Shown here: piece after piece, positions 4,690 through 64,000 of the stretch
Numbering within the stretch: position 1 is the stretch's first letter
Layout of the letters: every line of letters begins with the position of its first letter
Source: Cheilinus undulatus
Taxonomy: Eukaryota > Chordata > Actinopteri > Labriformes > Labridae
Assembly: GCF_018320785.1 (NCBI RefSeq)
Contig: NC_054875.1
Coordinates: 28,897,157 to 28,961,156 of the forward strand
DNA: 64,000 nucleotides
Direction of reading: 5' to 3'
The notes under the pieces: generated by a model
Databases searched by the model: none
What the model saw: only the letters and a program-made list of their open reading frames with translations
What the model was told of the DNA's origin: nothing
Made by a program: the position numbers and the translations under genes

Positions 4690-6800
4690 GATCATCCTAT
4701 TTCCTCTGGAAGTCTGTTCCAGTCTCAGAGCATCACCAGATGTTTTCGTTCTGCTCTGTGGAACAGGTCAAAGAGATGAGCCAGAGCATCTGAGAGCTGT
4801 CCTGGTTCATAAACTGAAACTGTCTTTGAAAGGTTGTCTGGTGAAAGGCCATCCTGAGCTTTATTAACTGATAAGAGAAATTTAAAACAAAGACCGAAAC
4901 TATCAGGAAACCTGAGTCAGGACATGAAAATGGGTGTAATTTTTGCTTTCTTTTAGTTTTTATCTGCACACATGCTGCTGATCTTTTTTTTTGTTTGGTC
5001 TCCCAGAAAGAAGTCTGCTAGATATAAAAGTGTGTGTTGTCTCTGTTTTTGATTCACGGAGAAAAATGACCTTACTTTGGGGATGTTGTCCAAATGATAA
5101 AGGCTATTTTTGTGACACATGGTGCATGAGCCTTAAAACTATCTCCCAAATCAAAGATCCCCAAAAGAAATTGTGCAATTAGTTTTGGGGTGAGTCTTCT
5201 TTGTGTAATTTGGTGGTCAGTTTCTTTCTGCTCCTTTAAATCATTAATTAAGCTTCTGTTTTGCAAAATTTTTAGCATCCAGTCTTTTATATTTAACATA
5301 TAGAGAATTTGAGTGAGTCATCTTGGCATCTGTAGACATTGCCACATACATCATATGCCTATTAAAAAACAAGAATAATGCGGCAATACAATTTTAATGT
5401 CTTTCTCTTTAAGTATACTCCCCCTCAGCATCAACACACAGCTTCATTCAGGTCTCCACTGATCAAAGCAGTGCAGTAGGTCTTCTTCAGACAGTTGTCT
5501 CAGATTCTGTTCTTTTCTTAACTTCTGACACAGACTCTAAATGTGTTCCTTTGAGCACAGATTTGATCTAAGAAAAAGATGTTGGTGCTAGATCAGGTGA
5601 CTAGAGAGGGTGATCAAGCACTGTGATTTGTTTTTGTGCCAGAAACTGAGAGTGCAGTGTAGCCTTGCGCAGTGTTTAGATGAAGAATGAAACCATTTTT
5701 TTCACAATTGTCATGTCTTTCTTCTGGTGTTTTCTCGCAGTTTTTCTAGAACCTGTTTATAATATTGTAGATTCCCGCAGACCCACTGGAACCTACTCCT
5801 TCATAATTAAACCCTTAATGTCAAAGAAAACAATCAACGTGGCCTTGAATTTGGTCTTGCTTTGTGGTTCTTTCTGCATCCTTGTTGATAATGGTGTTTT
5901 GTCTCAGGATTGTATTAGAAGATCCAAGCCTCATCACATATAGTCACTCCTTCTAAAAAATGTGGGTTTTCTTCAATTTGTTCCAAAATGTCTCCACAAA
6001 TTTGGTTTTGTTTTTCCTTTAGATCAGGAGTCAGAAGTTTTGACACAACTTTGGTACACACTTTTATGTTTGAAATTTCATGCAAAATTTGCTGAACTCT
6101 CTCATTATCAATGGAGACCATTTTCGCTATCGTTCTTATACTGAGTCGATCATATAAAACCTTTTGTTCAATTTATAAAATGTTTTTAGAAGTTTTCTGA
6201 TGTGGTTTTATCCTTGTAAGCGCAGTCTCTTAATAGCCATACTTCGTAAAGCTCACACATACCTCATATAGTTATATCTATATAGCTGTCATCAGCATAC
6301 TAGAGATGTGCAAAGAGATGTGGTGACCCCTGATGACACCACCCAGGGGTAATGTACAGATTAAAAAGTAATGGTCATAAAATTGATCCTTGTGGTATCA
6401 CATAGGTAACTTCATAGGCTTTGCAGAAGTGATTTTCTATTGATACAAAAAAGATTTTGTCACACAGTCATGACATAAACCAGTTAGACTCTACTAGAAA
6501 GGCCTATGTGGTAACGTAATCTAAGAATCTTTTGACCAACAGTGCACAGCACTTGGTGGCTAAAAAGCCTCTTGCTGTTTTCTTGAAGAAGAGATCTGAG
6601 TGTTTATAGATATGAGAACTAAGCGGCAAAATCTTTTAATGATGGCATATTTTAAAATGACACCTTGCAATTTTAATGATAAACAGTTAACGAAGTACAT
6701 GAGCTTTAAAAAACTGCAGATTTTACAGTAATTTGGTGTTTAAAACTGATGAATCTTCTCTTTGACATGGTTTTTTAACATGAAATTTGTAAATTTTTCC
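4690..6800 (-). mobile_element. L2-like LINE relic, interrupted by a mariner
   Basis: On the minus strand near 6270-6420, decayed reading frames give the reverse transcriptase blocks VIPQGSIL, PLLFNLYI and a YADD box, matching the L2/CR1 'GVPQGSVLGPLLF...YADDTQLY' region. On the far side of the mariner insertion, 4990-5350 continues with NIKDWM and HLDNIPKVRSFFS, which fit the later part of an L2 reverse transcriptase. Many stops and shifts are present. The outer limits are uncertain; 4690 and 6800 are where I lose similarity or AT-rich filler takes over. Confidence 0.6.
5356..6239 (-). mobile_element. Mariner-type transposon relic, copy 2
   Basis: Same family as the copy at 1177-2172 but on the minus strand. 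Its ends (TGCCTATTAAAAAACAAG at left; the right end reads TGGCTATTAAGAGACTGC in reverse) match copy 1, and both sides carry TA (5354-5355 and 6240-6241). The longest frame, 6121-5915, contains VQQILHEISNIKVCTKVV and ends CDEAWIF, the first catalytic aspartate block of mariner transposase. The remainder is broken. It sits inside the L2-like relic. Confidence 0.85.
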
Positions 6801-7892
6801 CCTGAACACATGAATGTTTCTTCTTCATCCTCTTCCTCTACAATAGAAGTTTAACCACAAAAGGTTAAAAAAATTATCAGCCTTGTGACATCAGCAGTGA
6901 CAGACTCTTTATTGTAAAGCAAGCCTTTATTTATATTGAATAATGACTCTGAGGATAACTTTCCTTTCTAGGAAAAACAAAAATAGATGAACACATACAG
7001 AAGTGTCACTTCAGCCTTGTGACATTATGCTACTTGATCCGTCAAAATCAGAATAAAACAGATTTAAAAAAAATGTAAAAATACACAGAAATAAATAAAT
7101 GAAATGTGATAAACATCTTACTAATAAATATTGCTTTGAAAATAAATTAAAGGCAACAGAACATGGCTGTAATCATCCAAATAAGGGCTGGTATTTCCCT
7201 TAGCACGTTCCTGCATAAAGTCATCATGTGGCTTCATGCTCAAGTAGGACAGTAAATCAATACATACAGTGTAGTTCCTTTAATTTTAAATCCTATTTTC
7301 ATGCATTATTACTAAAAAGAATCATTCAGTAAGTTAGGAGGTAAAAAGTCATTCAGTGAAAATAAATAACCAGTGTTGCACAATGAAAACATCCCCGAGT
7401 TTCAATGAAAAATCCCTTATCGAAGCAAACGCCCTTTCCTTACAAACCAGTCTGTCAATGGGAAAGCTTCTGCTTCATATCAATGACGTAACAAAAACCT
7501 GCCAACATGATAACTGATGGTTTGATTGTATGGGAGGAAACGACATCATTTCTTTAGCAAAGTGAATGCCAGATGAGACATCAAAATGCATAATAGATTT
7601 TAACAATCAGTAATGGTCTTCATGTCACTCTTTGTCCCCAACAGAAGTTGAGGTAGGGTGATAAGTTCAGTTCCTTGACATCCGTGCAGTGGTGCTTTGT
7701 TATTCCTCTTCATGGCTTCATAGCCTTCAAGTTCTCACCTTTCCCAGCATTATTCTACATAAATGAGTCAAAGCCCTTTCAAGTAACTCCCAGTCGCCAA
7801 TAAATCCCTGAAAACCTAGAGTTGGAGGGATATGTTCCTGTTCTCTACCTGGCTGGTATTTGAGGGTCTCTTCCCAGAACTGAGACCCAACT
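6801..7892 (-). other. Probable creld1 3' untranslated region, no other gene seen
   Basis: About 1.1 kb lies between the LINE relic and the creld1 stop codon. It is AT-rich with no long frame or splice-framed exon. A minus-strand AATAAA (TTTATT at 6908-6913) could end the creld1 transcript, but several such hexamers are present. The call rests on position only. Confidence 0.35.
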
Positions 7893-10800
7893 CTAACGTC
7901 CTTTTAAAAATCCATCCAGCATGTAGTCGCCCTTTTCTGTCAGCCAGTATCCAGCCATAGCAGCCACACCTCCGATAAAAATGGCAGTGAAAACCATGTC
8001 ACCTTTAGCAGCCAGTGTAGCAAGGGCACAGATTACGACGCCAAAGAACATCTGTTGCAGCACAAGGACTTCATCGTCCGTCATGTCATCAAACAGACCT
8101 TTTTCTGGACCAGCTAAGGAGGAAGAGGAAATAAACTCAGCAGACCGATCAGAGAAGCCATCAGACACACATGCCTATATAATCCCTATCCAGACTACTC
8201 ACCAGGAGGCTTATTTTCAACACAAATGCTGTCTCTTCTGATGAATCCATCGGCACAGTCACAGTGGAAGGAGCCCTCCTCATTGATACAGGCCTCATTG
8301 AGTCCCGGGCATGCTATTGCATGTTCATTACATTCATCAATATCTGTGGGAGCCAGCAAAGAAAGTCAGAGAAGCATACACAAATGTGGTGAAGATATTC
8401 AGTATTTAAGAGGTGCATCCTTACCAAGACACTTTGCTCCTTTCAGTCTGTAGCCACGTGCACATTTCCTACAGCGAGCAGGACCACTGCCCATACAGCC
8501 AACACATGCCGGATCACAGCCTGGATATAGGAAATGAACAGTGGTCGTAAACAGTGAGCAAAAAGGAAGCACTTTGTCCAACAAATGACCAAATAATTAA
8601 GTATGACTAAGTATGAAAAGAGTTTATGAAGGCCTGTAAACATGAACATTATTCTGACATCTGACCAGTTGCTTTATTATTCTTTAAGTAATATTGCCAA
8701 AAGCTAGCTACTAAAACAGAAATTTGCTTCTATCTTTGACGAAAAGAAAGTTAAATTAAAAAATGACTTGAACAAATTAAGTCACGTTCCACACGCTAAC
8801 CCAGAAAGACTTGGCACCACCAGTAATGTTCAACCTACTGACTGATGGATGCCTGTTGCCTGATGCGGAGGGATTTCCTCCTCATCTGGTAGCGAGGACC
8901 CCAAGGGCTTTGCCCCACTGCATTCATGTGACGTACAGCTTGTCTAACGGCTGCAGTATCAGGAGTACTACCCCTGCACAGATCTTTCATTCATAGGTGT
9001 TTATGTGTAGTTTAAGGCCGTGGGGGTCCAAACCCCACCCCTGAGGCTCTGGAGGCAAGGGACGCCCACCCTCTTCCCACATATCTTCAGCAGTGAGAGC
9101 AGCAGTGGTCCATTTTAAACTCACAGGTCAGCAAAAATTGACATCTAATGTCCTTTTTGCTTTTCATTAAGATGTTAAGAGTTACAATTATGTCTCTAAG
9201 AAGAGATAGCTGAAAAGGTTACAGTCAAGGATAGGCATGGGTCTGAATTGTCTAATTCAATTGGCAGCTCCAGTATTTGGGCAATTGAGCCATGCTTAAA
9301 ACACTACTCAATATCTATTGTCTCCTACTTATATTTTTGTTGCCGCAGCATTGAAACAGGTATCGATATTTATAGGATTTTGCAAGAATTGTATAAAAAT
9401 TTTAAATTGTAGATGCATTACAGCCTTATTTGAATACAAATTCCCTCATGTGAGAAATTTTGTTAAATGTTAAACTTATAAAACCTTAAAAAAAGTATTT
9501 AATAATAAATCAACAAAAAGATTCATTTATTTACCAGAAACACAGAAAACCAGACAATTTTGTGATGAGATACAGAACATTCTGATTTATTTCTAATATG
9601 TTGGAAATGCACCTACAAATCTACCTCTAACCTACCTCTGCATTCATATGATCCATCAGTGTTGTGACAGTAGGTGTTAGAAGCACATCGAGCCAGCTCA
9701 GTGCCACACTCGTCAATGTCTAAAAAACACAAGCATTCAGTCAAACAACAGAAAAGCACAAACCTGTACAGTCAATAACATATTTACAAATGATCTCTGA
9801 AGTGACACCTACCCACACACTTGTGGTCATGGAGGATCCAGCCAGGTTTGCAGTCAAGGCATTTGTAGTCCTGCGGCCCTGAGCATTTCTTACATGAGTG
9901 GTAGCAAGCTACACAGGATGGGAAAAAAAAACAAAACAGAAAGCTAGTGAGATCACTTAGCATGATCAGAGACGCATTCAAACACAGATCAAAGGCTGGA
10001 ACAGATGACTACATCTGAGGCACCTGCACAGGCTCCCGCGCTCTCATTGGAGCTCTTCTCTCTGAAGTAACCATCAGCACAGCTCTGGCAGAGACTTCCT
10101 GAGTACCCGGGATCACAGACGCACTCTCCATCTCCAAGGCGAGTCCCCTCTCCCTCACAGCGGCCAAGACCTCCGCAAACGCCACCAGGGCCAGATGGAC
10201 ACTCTGGAAAGAAATACACAATCAATTGTATGTTTGAAATCTCCATATAGTTTCACTTAGATTGAATGTTTTTCATACCTTTACAGTCAGGTCCAAATCG
10301 CCCGGGCAGACAGCAGAGTCTCAGCTCTTCTATGCAAAGCCACTCAAACAAGTCCGGAGCCTCTTGCTGCCTACAGGACACATACATGATGTCACTCATG
10401 GAGTTAAAACAGGGTCTTGGCAATAGATATTTAATACATAGCACAAAAGCTGAGGCTTACACAGTCAGAATTTAAAGAACAGATATGAGATTAAAACTTA
10501 TTCATCTACAGGATATTAGGTCTACCTGTGGAACCACCATGTCTCCACTTGGTCCTCGATCTGCTCCAGCAGCCGGTTACATTCAAAATCTGTTTTCTCA
10601 CAAGCAGCTTCAACAATCTCAAGGAGTCGAGTCTCACTGAAATAGAGATGTAAGAAAGGATGTTAAAGCCAGATGCTAATCCACCTCCACAGCCCTAATG
10701 GGACTTCACTGTAGTCCACACTAAGGCTTTGCATCCTCAATGGACCAAATCATTTAAAATATACTCTTACCTAATTATTCACATGTGACAATATAATGAA

Positions 10801-14444: not shown

Positions 14445-17400
14445 TCAGACCCACTCCTTTACATTGACCTTGTGGTTTGAGTTGGGGCTGGAGGGAGGCG
14501 TAACAAGGCTTGGTTTCAAAGGAACTGTTTCCGTAGAGTCTTCAGCTTCAATAACCACACAACCCTGAGACACTCCTGCAAGGCGTAACACACTTGTCCC
14601 TGCTGTGAACCCAGACAGCCTTCGTGCCAGAGCTCGGGATGCCATCCTCAGCCCCCCTGCCCTCTTCCTTCTTGCAGAAGCTGTTGCCATTTGTCGAGCC
14701 CCTGCCAGCTCAGTCAGAAAACCCAGGCTCTGAGAAGGAAGGCTGTAGACATGAAGTCCACGGAAAAGTTCTGGCAATGGCCTGAACCCACCTGGAGGTT
14801 CAGGTGGGAGTGACTCAAACTGTACCAGCATGAACCGCTCACCAGCACGGCCCTGCAAATAGTCTGCAAGAATACAGCTCAGTGAAGCAGTAAAGACATC
14901 TACACATTGAGAGGATGTAGTGCAGTTTCTTTCCACTTCCTCCTCTTCCTTCATATCTTTGCTCCTGGTAGTGTTCCTCTCTGAACTCTGAGCTCCCCAC
15001 TCCTCAGCTCTGATCCAGGCAGTCTGGGTTAGGACCAGGACCACTTTACCCCCCTGCCTTTGCAGTCGGTTTAGTCTTGAGTGGAGCCAGGGCACAGGAC
15101 CCAGAACACCCAGTTCAGTCTGGCTCCACAAGTCTAAAGACACGCTGAAGCCCAGAGCTTGAAGGGATGAACCCAGGTGACTCATCAGCTCTGGTAAAGC
15201 CTGGTCATCATCAGATGGGTACAGCAACACCACATGACCACCACCCACAGCACCTGAACCAGAGAAAGAAAACATTTTATAACTTTTGAAGGACATTATT
15301 ATAGTTACTATTTAGTAGTGTAAAATGGTTAGATTTGTGTCATCTTCCAATAAGCTATTAAATACAAAGCTTAAGTCAGGTATTTGCTAGCTAAGCTTAG
15401 CAATTAAATTATTCCTCAACAAAAGGCCTTTATAAACAACAAAATGCCTTCAGTATTCTGCTAAAAAAATAAAATAACAACAATCTAACTATAGCTAATA
15501 CCAACAACTGAGAATAAACTTGGGTTAAAAACCAAGAGAAATGCAGGGTAGATTTTTTTTCACAAGAGAATACGAAGATGTAAACATTTCCTCAAAGCAC
15601 GAGTAACAACATAAACTTTTCTGTTTTTTAAATACTGATCTTGTAAAAAATGATTTTCTTGTAACCAATAAATCCACAAGACAATCTGGCAGCAAAGGGT
15701 TCATCTTATACACTGCCTATTTCAGAACAGAAATGCATGCTAAAACTTTCTAAATAAAATTGGATTAAACTTCGTTTAGGGTTGGCTAAGGGTTAAGGTA
15801 AGGGTTGGGATACCAAAAGTTAAAAGTCAAAAACCTAAGCTGCAAAATCTGATTACAAAACATTTAATAAAGTCAAAAAACAGTCTGTTTAAAGGTAAAA
15901 AAATAAAAAAAACAAAACATGTCCTCCATGAAAACATTGTAACATTGTAATGCAACCAGTGCAGCTTATGTAGCTCCATTAGCTACTTAAGCTACGGAGA
16001 TAAAGAAGCTAGGTAGCTACCATAGCTAAAGCTAAGCTTACAAAACAGCTACATAAGTGGCGTATCTATGTTATCTGTGTAGCTGAGTTAGCTTTGGATA
16101 TGTTTTCTTAAGATCACATTGCTATAGCTACCTTGGCTACATTGGCTTATGCAGCAACGTTAATTATGTAGCTAGCATAGCTATGCCAGCTTTAGTTCAA
16201 GCTTTACAAAGCTAAAGCGAGCCACTTTTCATGGTACTACCTCTAAAATGGGTCTATACATAATTTAATCCTAGGTTAGACCTATGACCTTTTTTCTGAT
16301 GTATTTATAAAATGTTTCTTGGTCTGTAATGTTTGCAATGTGATTATTTCATAAATGTATCCACCAAACTTTGTTTATGAATAATGTTGAATTTAAAAAA
16401 AAAATCTGAAACTGGAAATATGTTCACCTGGTACGCCAGATTTGTTTCACACATCCATCTGGAAAATCAGTGATAGACAGCGTTTGGGAAAAGGCAGAGC
16501 CTTTGAAAAAAAATCTCGGAGGGTGATTGGATGAACGTTCTGTCTGTCACATCTTTACAGGCCAATCAGAGCAACAAAAGACTTGACGTAGCCGCTACAG
16601 AGCTGCGCCTCTACAGAGGAGTAAACTCCATAGAAAGTTGCATTACGCTAACCATGGTGATTGTAGACATGTCAGTACACAACTTTTGTCGTTTTGAAGA
16701 GAAAACAACTCAGTGCTGTTCTTTGTTCTTCTTTTAATGAAGAAATGTAGTCAAGTTCTGATAAAACTTGCGCTTTAGCAGCATCCACGCTAATCTCTTC
16801 CACCATAATTGCACCGGCCTCTTCTTGCTGCTTGCTTACATCACGGCTCTGCCGCGCCTGAAAGTACTGCCCCTCGACACTGATTGGCACTGTCACTTTC
16901 TAACTGGGCGCCAAACAGTTCAGACGGGAGCTTTGCAAGATGGATTCGCCAGTGAGAAACACGGAAACGGGCGTATCCATCTGCTTTGCGAGGTTAGAAA
17001 TATGTTGTAACAGGAAATTATGGCCCTTTCTTTCTAAGATATACTGCAGTGTCTCAGATGAGCAGTCTGTGAGAGTGGCCTTCAGAAATGTACAGTCTGC
17101 AGCCAGACCCCTCTCTGTAAATCAGTTGTCAGGCTGTCTCGTACCTTTAACATCCTCTTCTTTCAACCACCTCCACATGTAGCCTGAAAAGAGATTGCAC
17201 AATGAGGTTTTTTGTCACAGTGAATATTCAGTGACCAATGCATGAAAAACAGACCTTTAAGGACCCCTTGTATAAAATAGGCTCCTAGTATGGCGACACA
17301 GATAAGTAGTATTGATATGAGAAGTGGCAGGCTCCATCTCCATCGAGATTCTGGGGAACAGAAACAAAAAGTATTTAAAACATTATTATTATTATTATTT

Positions 17401-20400
17401 CGGACTTGGAGGAGCAGGTGGCCTAGTGGTTAAAGGTGCTCCCCATGTACCCGGGCGGCCAGGGTTCGAATCTGGCCTGAGGTCCTTCACCACATGTCCC
17501 TCCCCCACTCTTAACCCTGTTTCCGACTCTATCCACTGTCCTCCTCTATCTAATAAAGGCACAAAAATGCCCAAAAATAAATCTTAGAAAAAAAAAAAAG
17601 TTTCGAACTTTAAAAATCATGTGGATATATCCTCTAACCTGACATGCCAGATGGATGTGTTTCACACATCCATCTAAAAAACCAATGATAAACAGCGTTT
17701 GGGAAAGGGCAGAGCCTTTGAAAAAAAATCTCAGAGGGTGATTGGATGAACGTTCTGTCTGTCACATCTTTACAGGCCAATCAGAGCAACAAAACATGTG
17801 ATGTCATAGCTGCTACCGAGCTGCATGTGCGCAGCTACTGAGGAATAAACTCCATATAGAACAGCATAAAGCAAACCATGGCGACTGTAGACATGTCAGT
17901 ACCCACCTTTTGTCATTTTTAAATAGAAAACAACTCAGTGCCGTTCTTTGTTCTTCTTTTAATGAAAAAAAAAAAGTCACCGTCATTTTCTAATGGTTCA
18001 GACAGGAGCTTTGCAAGATGGATTTGCCAGTGAGAAACACTGAAACGGGCGGATCCATCTGCTTTGCAAGGTTACATATCCTCCTCATTCCTTAGAAATC
18101 TACTGTTTAGTTATCTGATACAATTCAAACATTACTAACATTTTATCAGGTTTTGGACAGTAGGTAGCGTTCTTACTTGTAAATGGACAATGAGGCTCAA
18201 AGTATGACTGCATCCCATGGATCTTTAACTAGGAAAAGATTAGCAGAGTCAAGGTTAGTGAAGACAGAGAAGCAAGCAACAAAACATGTTTACATTTCTG
18301 GAAAGTGACTGCTTTTACTCTGTAAGGACAAAGAGGATCATCACCTGGATGCAAAGCAAAGGGTGTGAAGATGCATTGAATTCTCCTGTTTTCTGAAAAA
18401 AAAAACAAAAAAACAACACATGGATAAATAAATTACTAAATTATAACAAAAAAAAGAACACAAAACGTTCATACTTAAACCTACTGTGTCCCAAATTACC
18501 CTCAGAGTGAACAATAACATATTAGGAACAGGATCATGAAATACACATGACTATTTTGTCTTAATGTAAAGACAGTTTTTTTATTAACAGAGCAATAACA
18601 TAAAGTATTGTAATGGACATTTTTTTACCCTTTTCTCAAAAGCACTTGGTCTTTGTAGCAGTGCAGCTATGGTGTTGTGGTTACAGCTTCAGATGAAACT
18701 CTTAACGGCAGACTTTGTCATGCTTTCTCCATGTTTATTTAAAGTTACTGTATTTCATGCTAGATTACGTTTTTAGAAGCTTAACTTGTGGAAAGGTTAC
18801 AAAGTCTAAATACTAAATTAAAAGTACAATGTTTTAAATTGTATGCACATTTACTCATAAAGAGGTACTGACAGTACCACAAGACAAATTACTCTGTAGG
18901 CTGTTTAATTTTTAGGTTTTATTTCTTTATTATCTTATTGTTCTTCATAAATAACTCATGAAAGTGGGCAAAGCTACTTTATTTTTTGAACACTGAAGAC
19001 TTTAAAGCTTCCAAAGGCCAAGCTCTTCCTCTTACCCAGTGTCCTTTGCGTGATGCCCTCCAGCCTGCATGTTCTTGGTTGTCCAGTTTCTGTCTGGAGC
19101 CCGTCACCTCCTCACACAGCCCTCCTGCTGCGTCCTTCTTGCACAACCACAACTCTCCCTCCAGCCTGCAGGGGGCAGTCACATTCCAGCTCAGCCCAGT
19201 ACCTCCGTCCCTCATCCGAGACTCAACCACAGACACAGACACATTCTGCTGCATTCTTTCCATGGCATCTGAAAAAAAATAAATAAACAAGTAAACAAAT
19301 CATGTTTGGCTGCAAAATATTTTCCAGCACGGATTTATCATACCCTAAAGCTGACCTTTAATAACCTTTTACCTTGTTTGTTTTTGAAAGGGCAGAATGG
19401 TCTGCGGAGTTTCTTTCCCTTCCACCACACCTAAAAACAAAAGTTTTAAGAGTTAAATTTATTTCCCAAATGGAATGTGCAGTCTTATCCTGTAAGCTGA
19501 AATTAAATCATGAGCTACCTGGAAGCAGAGGCACGGTGCAATGAAGTTTAATGGGATGGCGATTTCTGTCTTGCCCTTGGGCTGCAAAGGTATTAAAATA
19601 CAGTTATAGAGACAGGCATAATTAATGAATGGTGAATAGTTTAGCACTTACTGACCCATGAAAGACTCTCTCCTGATATGTTATCCCAAACCATATGAAA
19701 CATGAGCTCATCTTGTGAGGTATTGGTATTATTTTCAAGCTGAAGGAGGACTTCATTTGTCTTACTAGCAGTCATAGCTTGGAGTCTGGGGGCTAAAACA
19801 CAGACACAAGACAAATATAATAGACATATTACACTTTATAAATAAAAGTACGCTTTTTACACGTTTGTTGTGCAAAGAAATGTAAAGTCTTTATTCATCT
19901 GACTACAAATCCTCTTTCATTTAACATCATGTCTTACTGTCACAGTCCTTTACAGCCCATTCTATGTCCATGGAGCAGACTGAAACAAAGAGGAAGGACC
20001 TGTTCAGTAAAATTACATTGATCTGCAGTCTTTGCTAATAGAAGTGGACTTTACCTTCTTGTAAAGATGGTATTGTGATTTTTTTAATGATGTCTGTGCC
20101 ATCCAAGCCTGTAAAGGCTTGGACTGAAACAGGACTGCCGAACATCAGGTGCTTCCTCAAAAGAAGCTGCAGTAGAAAGAAAATAACTCACTTATTCAAA
20201 TCAAACACACAGAAGGAAAACATTTTAGAAATGCAGAAATGAGAAGAAAAGAATGTCTTTGTGCAAATCAAAGTAAAGAGATATTATAACACATATGTAA
20301 GGTAAACTTTATTATCCCTGAGGGGCAATTCACTGTATAGCCAGCAGAGAATCAAAGTACAAAGTACTCACTCTGCTTTGAAAACCCATCCATTAACTAT

Positions 20401-23400
20401 TATTTTAATGATGCATTATTTTTAATCCTGATGCAAACAGATTTGATCTTTGTTTTGTGCATAGTTCACAACATCTGGGTTGAGCTCCTCTTAAAAGTCA
20501 CAAGATGAGTTATGAGCACTATTGAAACAGGACTAGAATTACCTGTGGACCTCTGATAGCTTGTGAATTACCCCCTGATGTCAGCATTTGGTGCAGTGCA
20601 TTCTCATAGGATAAGCAAAGCTCTAATGTACTCAAATTTACATTCATTTCTGAAGGAAAAAAATAACGGTGCTGCATTGTTGCAGCAATTAAAAAGCAAA
20701 ATTTTTATTTCTAAAATGCAATGTTTTTATCTTACTCCTGTCTCTTTAGCAGTTTTTGTGCAGATGATGCTGTTGATTAACCTTGCATAGCAGATGGATA
20801 CGCCCGTTTCTGTGTTTCTGACTGGTGAATCTATCTTGCAAAGCGCCCATCTGAATCATTTGGGCCTGGTTAGAAAGTGACAGGACCAATCAGCGACAAG
20901 GGGTAGTACTCCCTGGCACAGCGGAGTCGTGACGTAAGCAAGCAGCAACAAGAAACGGGTGCAGTTATGGCAGAAGAGATTAGCGTGGATGCTGCTAAAG
21001 CGCCAGTTTTATCAGAACATGATGGCATTTCTTCGTTAAAGGAAGAACAAAGAACTGCAGTGAGTTGTTTTCTTTACAAAAACGACAAAAGTTGTGTACT
21101 GACATGTCTATAGTCACCATGGTTCACGTTGCAGTTCCCTATGGAGTTCAGTCCTCGGCAGGGGCGCAGCTTGATAACAGCTACGTCACATGTTTTGTTG
21201 CCCTGATTGGCCCATAAAGATGTGACAGACAGAAGTTCATCCAATCACCCTCCGAGTTTTTTTTCAAAGGATCTGCCCTTTCCCAAATGCTGTGTATGAG
21301 TTGTTTTCCTGATGGATGTGTGACACAAATCCATCTGGCATGCCAGGTTAACTGTTGATGTTATTCTGCGCTCTATAAATTTAGGAACGTATCCACAACA
21401 GCCCTCCTTGCGATCAGCTATTGCAGTACAAAAACTGAATGTTTAGCGACACATTTCAAATCATATATTGTGTTTTGCATTAAATGTACATCTAAATAAA
21501 ACTGAACAAGATCAGGCAGTTGTAAAGAGAAACTGTAGGAAACAGAGCGCTGTGCATATGAAGAGGACAGCGGTGCACACACCCATATTTGGATAGTAGA
21601 GTTTTATAAATGTTAAGTAAAATAAATTCATTTTTACAAATATGCTGAAATTAACTTAAAGAGAAGCACAATTTATAACCTATATTTGCTTATCTGTGCA
21701 AAGCTTTGTTAACAGTCTCCTATGCTGTCGCTATCATTTGTTTTATCAAAAAAGACAGAAAAAAAGCCACACAGATCATAAAAAACATAATTACCACCCT
21801 GTTACAGAGATGCCTACTTCACACTGCCAACACTGAAATGTGAAAGGTAATTTGTCATGCATTTTTTTTCTCCACAAATTACAGACATGGTCTATTTGCA
21901 TGGGATTAAAAACACAGATGTCCTGTGTGGTTATTACATCAGAGGTCCTTTGGTAATGCTAGTCCTCTGGGAATAGGGCATAAGAGTCTGTAATCTAGGC
22001 AGGTTTTTTCTGATCGTTAAAGGTATAATATGCAGCATTTTAAAAGTGAATATATCAGGTATCAAATATATCCATACTGCATTTATTACTGAGTAATGAC
22101 TTTCTTTAAATAAGTGATTTATTGTTTTTAGCTCTGTGTTTACACAAGCTGTACTGTGCTTTCATTAGTTTTTTTATGTTTCATAAAGAGACTGCTCCAC
22201 CCTCTCTGGATTCTGTATGTAGAGTCACACTGGCAGAGTTTCTTCACAATGAAACAAACGTTGCATTTTATGCCTTTAAATAAAAAGAAAGGAACACATA
22301 AAAGTTTTTTTTTCTCTTTCTAGCTGAGCTTTATCTCCTCACCTGAAGTGTGTCCTGCTGTGATGCTTTATGTAAACCCGAGATCTTTGGTGTAAACTGG
22401 ATTATCTTGCAAAGCTCGGGCAATCCTGGTGAACTGTGACACACTTTCACTGCAACACAAACAGCATACAAGGAAACTGAACAGTGTAATTATCATTTAT
22501 AAATAGTAAAAAATATTTGTTTGGGTTTCAGGTTGTGCTTCTTTACCTCTCCGCTCAGAAACCACAAACTGGACACTCCCCTCCACATTCATGCCAAAGA
22601 CATCCTCATGACTGCTGTACTGACCAGATGCCTCTGAAATATCCTTTGGGTTGTCCACTCCTACAACTTCATGGGCAATGTAGCAAACAGTCAGCGGGAA
22701 ATGCAATGTTTTAAAAGCAGTTTGCAAGCTGTCAGCCAGCCAAACAACTATGATTCATGAAAGAACTACCCAAGAAACTATGACAGCAATGAGCTCCACA
22801 AACAAAGACATTTACTGTAATGAAGACTTATGATCCTGTAAGGAAAAAAGTGAAGCGTCACTGAGTCACCCTGTCTGACAATCCAAAACTTGGCATTTAT
22901 TACACTTACTTTGGACTGTGATGTTGATTTGCAGGCAGGGTTTACAGTCTTGTGCAGCAGAACAGCACAGAAACACTTTCAGCTTCGCATGAGTGATGTT
23001 TGTTGTTTCATCTGGATCAGGTGGAGCAGCAGCAAACAGAGACTCTGCAGAAGAAAAGGAGTCTGTAAAAGTCCAGTTGTAGTTTAATAACAGGTTGTTA
23101 GAATGATATAAGATGCACTGGGGTTGATGGTGTTTTTACCTGAACTCACACTGCAATCAGTCAAACCCTAAAAAGAGAAGAGTTGTGGTTGAGCATTGAG
23201 CAATTTCAACATATTCAACTCGACAATAAAGCACAACTCTTGTATGTCTGGCTCCAACAATGAAGAGGTAAGAGAGGTCTTGATTACTTAAGCAAAATAG
23301 ATTATACGATATCCACGCATCCATGATCCATATCACCTGTAGCGTTTGGGGTTGTGAGGGCTGAGATGTCATCCAAATCAGATGTGCATTTATTTTTTAA

Positions 23401-30831: not shown

Positions 30832-33800
30832 TCAAAGTGTCTCTGCTCCCCATGGAGACACGTTGAGCGGCTCATGCTCTTGTACACTCCCCTGCCTTGC
30901 TGTGTTAGCTGCCAGTGGCAACCTGAGCCCACTCTGCGTCTTACCTGAGTTCATTTTTAGCGACGATGTGACACTCAACCCCTGCAATTTCTTTCCACGC
31001 GTCTGAGGCAGCAGTGTTTGAAGTCTCTTGGCTAGCCGCCGTGCCAGCCATACTGACAGCACTTTAGAAAGGAGTCTGGGCCAGCAGTGCCACCTGAATT
31101 TACCTGTTTTTGTCTGTTGTCTTATCCCTCCAAGCACTTGTATCAAACCCCTGAAATCTGAAGGTAAACAGTAGTGAGGGATTTCTTTGAGGGCTTTTGG
31201 GATGTCCCTGTTGCGACAGAGTCCTTGGAAGTAGACAAGGGCCACTCCTTGACCTTTGTTACCCTGCAGTACCCCCTCCAGGCGGGCTAGAGCAGCCAAA
31301 AACACAGGCATTATCACTGACGAGGACTCCTTTGGGGAGTTGCAGTCTACATCATCACACAAGTTAACACAATCTTTTTCTGCAATAGCTTTCTCAATTT
31401 TAGATTTCCCCTGTCTTCTTCCATTTGGTTTACAATCCTCTTGAAAAAGCTTCACTACTGCTCCCTTTTTTCCCTCATTCTTTCCCACATTTGCCTTCTT
31501 CTCCCTCCATGTCTCATAGGTCTTCTTTGCTCCAGGGCTCCAAATAATCAGTACTTTTCCTTGTGCTTTGAGCACATTTTCCCACTGCCCATACAACCAG
31601 GGAAGTGGGCCGAGATCTGTCACTCCAGTTCCAGACCCAGACCCAGCCTGTGTTTGAGAGCTCTGGGCCCACAGGGCCATGTGAACTGTGGCACTCAGGT
31701 CCCTCTGCAGGATCGAGGCTAATGCACACACAGAAGAGACATGTGCTGAGTGCTCTGATGAGCAGACCAGTAACACTGGCTTCTGGATGGAGAGCCAACC
31801 TGGAAAATGGGAAACACAAAGAAGGAGAAAAATATTGGAAAATTCACTCAGAGTGCTTTCACACCTAACCTGTTGAGTTCTATTAAATCAAAATTCAGTC
31901 CAATTTTGAGTTTGTGTGGTTCATGATGAAAGTAGAGATTGTAAATATATTCAATTAAGATGATCTGGTATAAACTACGGCCTAAAGTACATGATATCTT
32001 TGTTAAATAAAGCCGGTGGAAAACACCTCAAGAAATATCTATCAATCTATCTGTTTCTTTGACTGTCAAATGAATATATTAATTTACAGGATTTATATAC
32101 ATATTTATCTTGTGAGTTCGCTATAATTTATATCAAAGAGAATAACTGTCATTTTTATTGCTAAAATGCAAGAAAGTAGATTCTGCTTGTGTTTCACTGA
32201 TGAAATCTCATTTATTTTTTTGTCTTAGTGATTTTTATTATTGGAACTTACATGAATATGGCTTACTCAGTATGAAATGATTAATCAAAATTGATTTAAT
32301 GTGATAATTTGTGCATTTTATTTTATTCCCCATCTACTTGTTTTGCCCTACATGGCGGATCTGCCTCTGGCAATGTGGCAGCGACACTTAAGCAGTCCAG
32401 CCAGTCAGTAAGGTGTCTATTTATATTATGTCTATGCTTATAAATGCCCTTTGTGAACACAGATCAAATTTCATGTAATTATGCCGCAATGTAACAAATC
32501 AGTCCTTAAGTCGAACCAAAGAAACTGAACTACTGGTGTGAAAATGTTCGTTTGGTGAACCATAGCACAATATTGGGTTAAGAATGTGATTTTAACTTTT
32601 TTTTTTTTCATTTTCATAAAGACATGAAATTATTTGCTGTATAACTGCTATTCTTTACTTTTGGTTTACTGGAAAAAAGCAAAATATTCGTTTTCCTTAT
32701 TCGTCTCTAAACCTGTATATAATACTTTTCAACTCTGAGGTTATATAGTTATGAATAGCACTTTTTTTCTTTATAAAATGTGACTCTTCTGTCTTACAAA
32801 GACCTTATTTGAAATAGAAGTGCTAAAACAAATGGATGAGTCTGAGATGGAAAAACATCCAGAACAGCCATATATTTATTTCACTACTCTTCTCTGCTTG
32901 TTTTTGTACTTTCTGCATCTCCCTCTTCCCTATTTCTTCATCTCCTTCTTCCTGCATCTTTCTCACCACTCTCTGCAATTTCCTCTGTCCCTTTAAAATC
33001 CCAACATCACTTAGGCAGAGAGTGATTAAAAATGAACCTAGTTCTGCAGAGGTTTCTGCCCATTAAAGGGAAGTTTTTCCTTGCCAATGTAACTCTGCTT
33101 AAAGTTGCTTGGTTCTGAGTTCATGGTGGATTAATGCTGAGTTTTGAGAACAGTCTAGACCTGCTCTCTTAGTAAAGATAACTTTGGTTATAAACTGGCT
33201 GGCTGCAAATAAAGAGAAATTGATTTATTGTAATAGTATTAAAATGTATAGTTTTTTGATGATTTTAATTTGTCCATACCTGTATCAATTTTTAATTGTA
33301 TTGCAAATTGTCACTTTATCTCTCATTTGTACTGTTCTTTTATATTTGTACATTTACCATGTGCTATTCGGCTGATGCCAATTAGGTAAATTAACTGACC
33401 TCTTAAGACTATTAAATATATTATTGAACCTACCTACAGCTCCATTCTTGGTGAGACAGTGGATGATTTTTCCCAGCGACACAACAGCACACACAAATAT
33501 TAAAGCTGCAACAGCGTATAAACCCCATCTGTTGTGCATGTCTGTAAACAGGAAATGCAGGGTATCTTATCATGAGAGGAATGTGTGTCAATGCATTGTG
33601 ATGTAAACTCAAACTGTGTATGTGTCGGCACACTTTGGCTCGAGTGTGTGTCTCACTCACAATCCGGGCACAAAATTCTTCTGCCAGAAAGAGCAGGATG
33701 AGACCGCCACACCTGCAGAGAAGGAATTAAAAAGATAAGAGGAGGAAGTGTATTACACCATGTCCAGATTCACATTTTTCAGTGCTGTTATGTATGTGCT

Positions 33801-44079: not shown

Positions 44080-64000
<19,921 letters not shown>

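Follow-up and report, generated by a model that had tools for sequence, protein, structure and literature searches.

Academ DNA transposons that encode a helicase, i.e., AcademH, reportedly occur in animals and fungi (Kojima is said to have described them in 2020), and the helicase of AcademH is of the superfamily 2 type. In the relevant passages of PMC10045372, AcademH makes target-site duplications of 9 or 10 bp and AcademX of 3 or 4 bp, the lengths being tied to the encoded helicase and nuclease, respectively; piggyBac elements are given there with a 4-bp duplication and CC..GG termini. Kolobok elements duplicate TTAA, and the helicase-bearing KolobokH encodes a RecQ helicase that lies downstream of the transposase domain; in the excerpted text of PMC9587614, KolobokH is known only from fungi. 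Academ elements are reported for zebrafish, medaka and stickleback in part of PMC4746887. Here we analyzed a stretch of 64,000 nt from the teleost Cheilinus undulatus (NC_054875.1:28,897,157-28,961,156, forward strand, assembly GCF_018320785.1), hereafter the window, which holds three related copies, A, B and C, of one miniature element, with A and C in opposite orientation. We conclude that these repeats almost certainly arose by deletion from a DNA transposon that carried a helicase and made 9-bp target-site duplications. This accounts for the puzzling short frame that they share, which is a remnant of the transposon's helicase gene.

Ends and target-site duplication of the miniature family

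Copy A was searched against its own genome (1.17 Gb, 46 contigs), and the best 40 of 9,675 candidates were scored, i.e., copy A and 39 others that were 85–88% identical to it; these figures are not a copy count. The 39 other genomic copies and the window copies A, B and C make up an alignment of 42 rows, in which identity to the family consensus ranged from 90.1 to 94.7%, with a median of 92.0%. The family is one of miniature transposons dispersed in the genome, and copies A to C are members of it. The first 36 codons of the short frame were open and without insertions or deletions in 25 of the 42 copies, 24 of which also kept the ATG. Because so many copies keep these codons open, the frame is no chance product of one copy. 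Openness alone is no evidence of selection, since a decaying relic can look alike.

Members of the family start with TAACC and end with GGTTA, and 17 of 22 bases match between their short, imperfect terminal inverted repeats. Duplications and TTAA boundaries were counted on 36 copies; the other six showed no end that could be scored with the pattern applied. At a length of 9 bp, the two flanks were on average 84% identical, compared with 30% for shuffled flank pairs, and at lengths of 2–8, 10 and 11 bp identity was 22–33%, so that a peak was found only at 9 bp. The 9-bp duplications were exact in 13 of the 36 copies and had at most two mismatches in 30. As the flanks agree solely as a 9-bp duplication, the element itself must start with TAACC and end with GGTTA.

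The preliminary description of this DNA had taken the family as flanked by TTAA and named piggyBac and Kolobok transposases as the usual drivers of such elements. Copy C indeed has TTAA at both boundaries, and the RecQ helicase of KolobokH would suit the short frame. Yet of the 36 copies, 11 had TTAA at the left end, eight at the right and just five at both, copy C among them, where a chance T and A flank the terminal TAA and TTA of the element itself. Kolobok, including KolobokH, was rejected on these counts and on the 9-bp duplication found instead, and piggyBac on the same duplication and on the TAACC..GGTTA termini. KolobokH resembles the element described here in that a DNA transposon carries a RecQ helicase; it differs in its TTAA duplication and its fungal hosts, compared with 9 bp and an animal genome here, and in its gene order, as the second gene of our element lies on the strand opposite to the helicase (see below). 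An element targeting TTAA is therefore extremely unlikely, and the target site is corrected from TTAA to a 9-bp duplication.

The long member on contig C14 and its two genes

A search of the genome for the RecQ family led to a long member on contig C14 (C14:1079324-1088318, minus strand, 8,995 bp). It ends in the termini of the family and is flanked by a 9-bp duplication, AAAACCAGC and AAAACCAGA, with one mismatch. Its first helicase piece contains MAEDISVDAAIASVLSELDDISSLKQEQRTAVSSFL and then runs on as SVFALLPTGFDKSLIYQLAPLVVKK, i.e., the frame of the miniatures is extended as LKQEQRTAVSSFLSVFALLPTGFDKSLIYQLAPLVV into what we take to be helicase motif I, LPTGFDKSLIYQ. A later piece carries ALGMGLNFP..QQVGRAGR, presumably motifs V/VI, and the motifs follow each other in profile order. 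For three plus-strand pieces of the long member, the RecQ profile TIGR00614 was the best NCBIfam match (E 7e-10, 1e-5 and 2e-15), and the pieces lie in order along it at positions 3–83, 163–226 and 276–367. The third piece also matched Pfam Helicase_C (PF00271) over the cut-off with E 1e-12, and a Pfam search of the second piece gave no match. Among solved structures, WRN was the top match of the C-terminal piece and RECQL5 that of the first piece. The pieces thus resemble RecQ helicases (RECQL5, WRN, BLM) by best profile and top structure matches, whereas the element's gene has decayed and is enclosed by transposon termini. A search of viral contigs with a helicase piece gave six pattern matches and no confirmed relative.

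The link between miniature frame and helicase is visible only via longer copies, because the 48-residue frame alone matched no family in Pfam or NCBIfam. On contig C13 (C13:33937119), one frame (CLKEEQRTTQKTFLGRKDVFALLPTGLDKSFIYSLAPLVVNK) runs through from the LKEEQRT stretch to motif I; at C17:43454468 both are present in different frames, and at C8:5246335 the motif I region is kept and the upstream frame was not seen. The suggestion of a helicase-like protein encoded by the parent element is supported by the C14 copy, in which the frame continues to motif I and later to V/VI, with RecQ as best NCBIfam profile.

Alternatively, the first exon of a RecQ helicase gene of the host might have been captured by the miniature family; the preliminary description had likewise raised capture of a host helicase exon. 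RecQ-type matches are found on several contigs of the genome, among them C9, C16, C21 and C23, and a miniature alone cannot separate capture from descent. In the long member, however, the family termini and duplication enclose the body of a helicase gene, and the opposite strand holds a second gene. Moreover, apart from itself, the C-terminal part of its helicase matched two stop-containing loci (54% and 36–37%) and two helicases elsewhere in the genome at 39–41%. Capture of a host exon was rejected on the C14 copy; it is very unlikely, and not needed as an explanation.

The second gene starts from the other end of the long member on the opposite strand, and two pieces of its product, ordered as in the profile, matched Pfam DUF6589, the second of them over the cut-off (E 8.5e-15). 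Searching the genome for DUF6589 yielded two candidates, and the one match over the cut-off was this place on C14. The opposing gene had no match in NCBIfam. Relatives of its N-terminal part were found at C7:45938145 (63%) and C10:24518135 (68%). Its start reads MATVDMSVHDFCRF followed by a stop in the miniature consensus, MATVDKSVHDFCRFCKENLRVKGTL in the parent and MATVEVTIPSIHDCCRFCKENLRMNGTL in the C7 copy. N-terminal parts from the C7 copy came near the cut-off of no Pfam family, and one of them had no meaningful match among solved structures (best E 0.54). The DUF6589 piece gave 18 pattern matches in viral contigs and no confirmed relative. A search of the paper collection used here for the name DUF6589 found none.

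The C7 relative, within C7:45932001-45942000, has two open frames on the minus strand, 6175–6927 (251 codons) and 8887–9510 (208 codons). Within the 10 kb around this copy, similarity to the family's ends was weak and misplaced. It is a diverged element or possibly a gene kept by the host.

Comparison of the miniature consensus with the parent accounts for the origin of the family. Consensus positions 1–296 correspond to parent 1–296 at 87% identity and positions 291–576 to parent 8693–8995 at 76%, and the two blocks overlap at TTTTCT. Copies A and C show the same parent end blocks. This is what a single internal deletion at a short stretch common to both blocks would leave, here between the starts of two convergent genes. 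In the miniatures, the beginnings of both genes are retained, and the gene bodies are gone entirely. The tail of the 48-residue frame, KNDKSCVLTCL, is read from DNA whose other strand encodes the beginning of the second gene, which is why the likeness to helicases ends at SCFL.

We therefore propose the following course, for which ends, junction, 9-bp duplication and the helicase and DUF6589 matches were observed directly. The parent would be a DNA transposon of about 9 kb with two convergent genes, i.e., one for a RecQ-like superfamily 2 helicase starting from one end and one for a DUF6589-containing protein, the putative transposase, starting from the other. An internal deletion from about parent position 296 to about 8693, at the 5–6 shared bases of TTTTCT, would have taken both gene bodies and left short, imperfect terminal inverted repeats with the first codons of both genes. 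The resulting non-autonomous miniatures may have spread by proteins supplied in trans by full-length copies, with the DUF6589 protein presumably moving the element.

The copies C8:5246335 and C13:33937119 show the motif I region and then, within a few hundred bases, right-end-like sequence. They may be intermediate deletion derivatives, so that shortening may have happened repeatedly in the family.

Assignment to a transposon superfamily

The parent element is most likely an AcademH transposon, because it combines a 9-bp duplication with a helicase. Both features of AcademH were found, i.e., the duplication peak at 9 bp and a helicase gene (PF00271 over the cut-off, RecQ as best profile but below the family cut-off). 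In contrast to AcademH as described, the copies sampled here by similarity to copy A are miniatures. We regard the element as a new member of an already known transposon type. For the explanation as a whole, i.e., deletion derivatives of a helicase transposon that is most likely AcademH, we estimate a probability of about 85%.

A helicase-bearing, 9-bp-duplicating transposon of a superfamily other than Academ, e.g., one of its own with the DUF6589 protein as transposase, would fit the observation that the transposase-like protein had DUF6589 as its only Pfam match and nothing in NCBIfam. However, a helicase together with a duplication of 9–10 bp is the published AcademH combination in the cited part of PMC10045372, and Academ elements are reported in teleosts in that of PMC4746887. 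A non-Academ origin is thus improbable. Under the AcademH assignment as well, the arrangement of the C14 member suggests a function for the Pfam family DUF6589, i.e., as the transposase of a helicase-bearing element.

Several observations weigh against the proposed explanation. The sampled copies are those most like copy A and not a random sample, and the remaining six of the 36 duplications have three to six mismatches. A diverged fourth copy in the window (copy D, see below) has GATGAG in common between its flanks and no clean 9-bp duplication. Only one full-length member was found, which is decayed, with its helicase split over frames. Of the helicase motifs that the preliminary description asked about in longer copies, motif I is present, reading GFDKS in the C14 copy; inspection by eye of parent 481–1560, translated in three frames, revealed no DEAH-type motif II in this decayed copy. 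None of the three pieces reached the RecQ whole-protein cut-off singly, and the match of the first piece to Pfam DEAD (PF00270) stayed below the cut-off (22.9 of 26 bits). DEAD-box RNA helicases appeared lower in the list of solved-structure matches. As to the second gene, its first DUF6589 piece was below the cut-off (E 0.01, 15 of 27 bits). The role of an Academ-type DDD/E transposase is a candidate one, suggested for a protein that had DUF6589 as its sole Pfam match.

Window copies and neighboring features

Copy A spans 573 bp including its terminal bases (16424–16996, minus strand) and is 92% identical to the family consensus. It is flanked by exact 9-bp duplications, GAAATATGT, at 16415–16423 and 16997–17005, and its blocks align to bases 1–298, 8693–8754 and 8828–8993 of the C14 parent. 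The start of the helicase gene, MVEEISVDAAKAQVLSELDYISSLKEEQRTALSCFL, lies at 16698–16806 (minus strand) inside the block aligned to parent 1–298. The start of the opposing gene, MVIVDMSVHNFCRF, at 16654–16705 (plus strand), is homologous to MATVDKSVHDFCRFCKEN of the parent, and the frame is lost afterwards.

Copy B (17635–18074, minus strand, 440 bp) is a miniature that has lost more of its interior; its 9-bp duplication contains one mismatch. It has the same parent end blocks as A and C plus a further gap. Being shorter by 133 bp, it has neither the ATG nor the first codons of the frame, but SLKEEQRTALSCFL is retained.

Copy C (20778–21350, plus strand, 573 bp) is 90% identical to the consensus and aligns to parent 1–296 and 8693–8995. 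Its duplication reads GCTGTTGAT on the left (20769–20777) and ACTGTTGAT on the right (21351–21359), with one mismatch between the two. The 48-codon frame with its stop lies at 20967–21113 (plus strand) and starts MAEEISVDAAKAPVLSEHDGISSLKEEQRTAVSCFL; copy A carries a homologous frame. The helicase-derived part covers no more than roughly the first 36 codons, ending near 21073. By comparison with the parent end, the first codons of the opposing gene, MVTIDMSVHNFCRFCKEN, are at 21068–21120 (minus strand). The preliminary description was thus right about three related copies, the opposite orientation of A and C, the shorter copy B and the frame shared by A and C; the size of 567 bp it gave for A and C becomes 573 bp with the terminal bases, and of its 48-residue frame about 36 residues are helicase-derived.

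Copy D, the diverged fourth family member of about 460 bp (50521–50980, plus strand), aligned with consensus 1–78 and 229–279. Within 50707–50822 it holds a frame-shifted vestige of helicase motif I, in the reading frame starting at 50502. Its DNA scored 64 against the C13 copy, with the best of 300 shuffles at 25 or less, and 28 against the C14 parent, compared with 24 for shuffles.

Copies A to C lie between two open frames with SEFIR domains, 14448–15311 (E 7e-18) and 30835–31887 (E 5e-16), both on the minus strand. SEFIR domains occur in interleukin-17 receptors, and by synteny the two frames may be il17rc/il17re. Between copies A and B, at about 17410–17560, a sequence resembling a tRNA-derived short repeat was noted by eye (GGGTTCGAATC, box B-like); ARAGORN found no tRNA over the window. 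Exons with bromodomain and PHD or PHD-like zinc fingers lie at 56713–57216, 61915–62529 and 63446–63817 (all minus strand), as would fit a BRPF-type gene. An open reverse transcriptase frame of 336 codons, LINE-like by eye, is present at 46842–47849 (minus strand, RVT_1 E 1e-36) and is adjoined by open frames at 45873–46838 and 48134–48820. A Tc1-like transposase frame is found at 58264–58857 (plus strand, HTH_Tnp_Tc3_2 E 8e-9).

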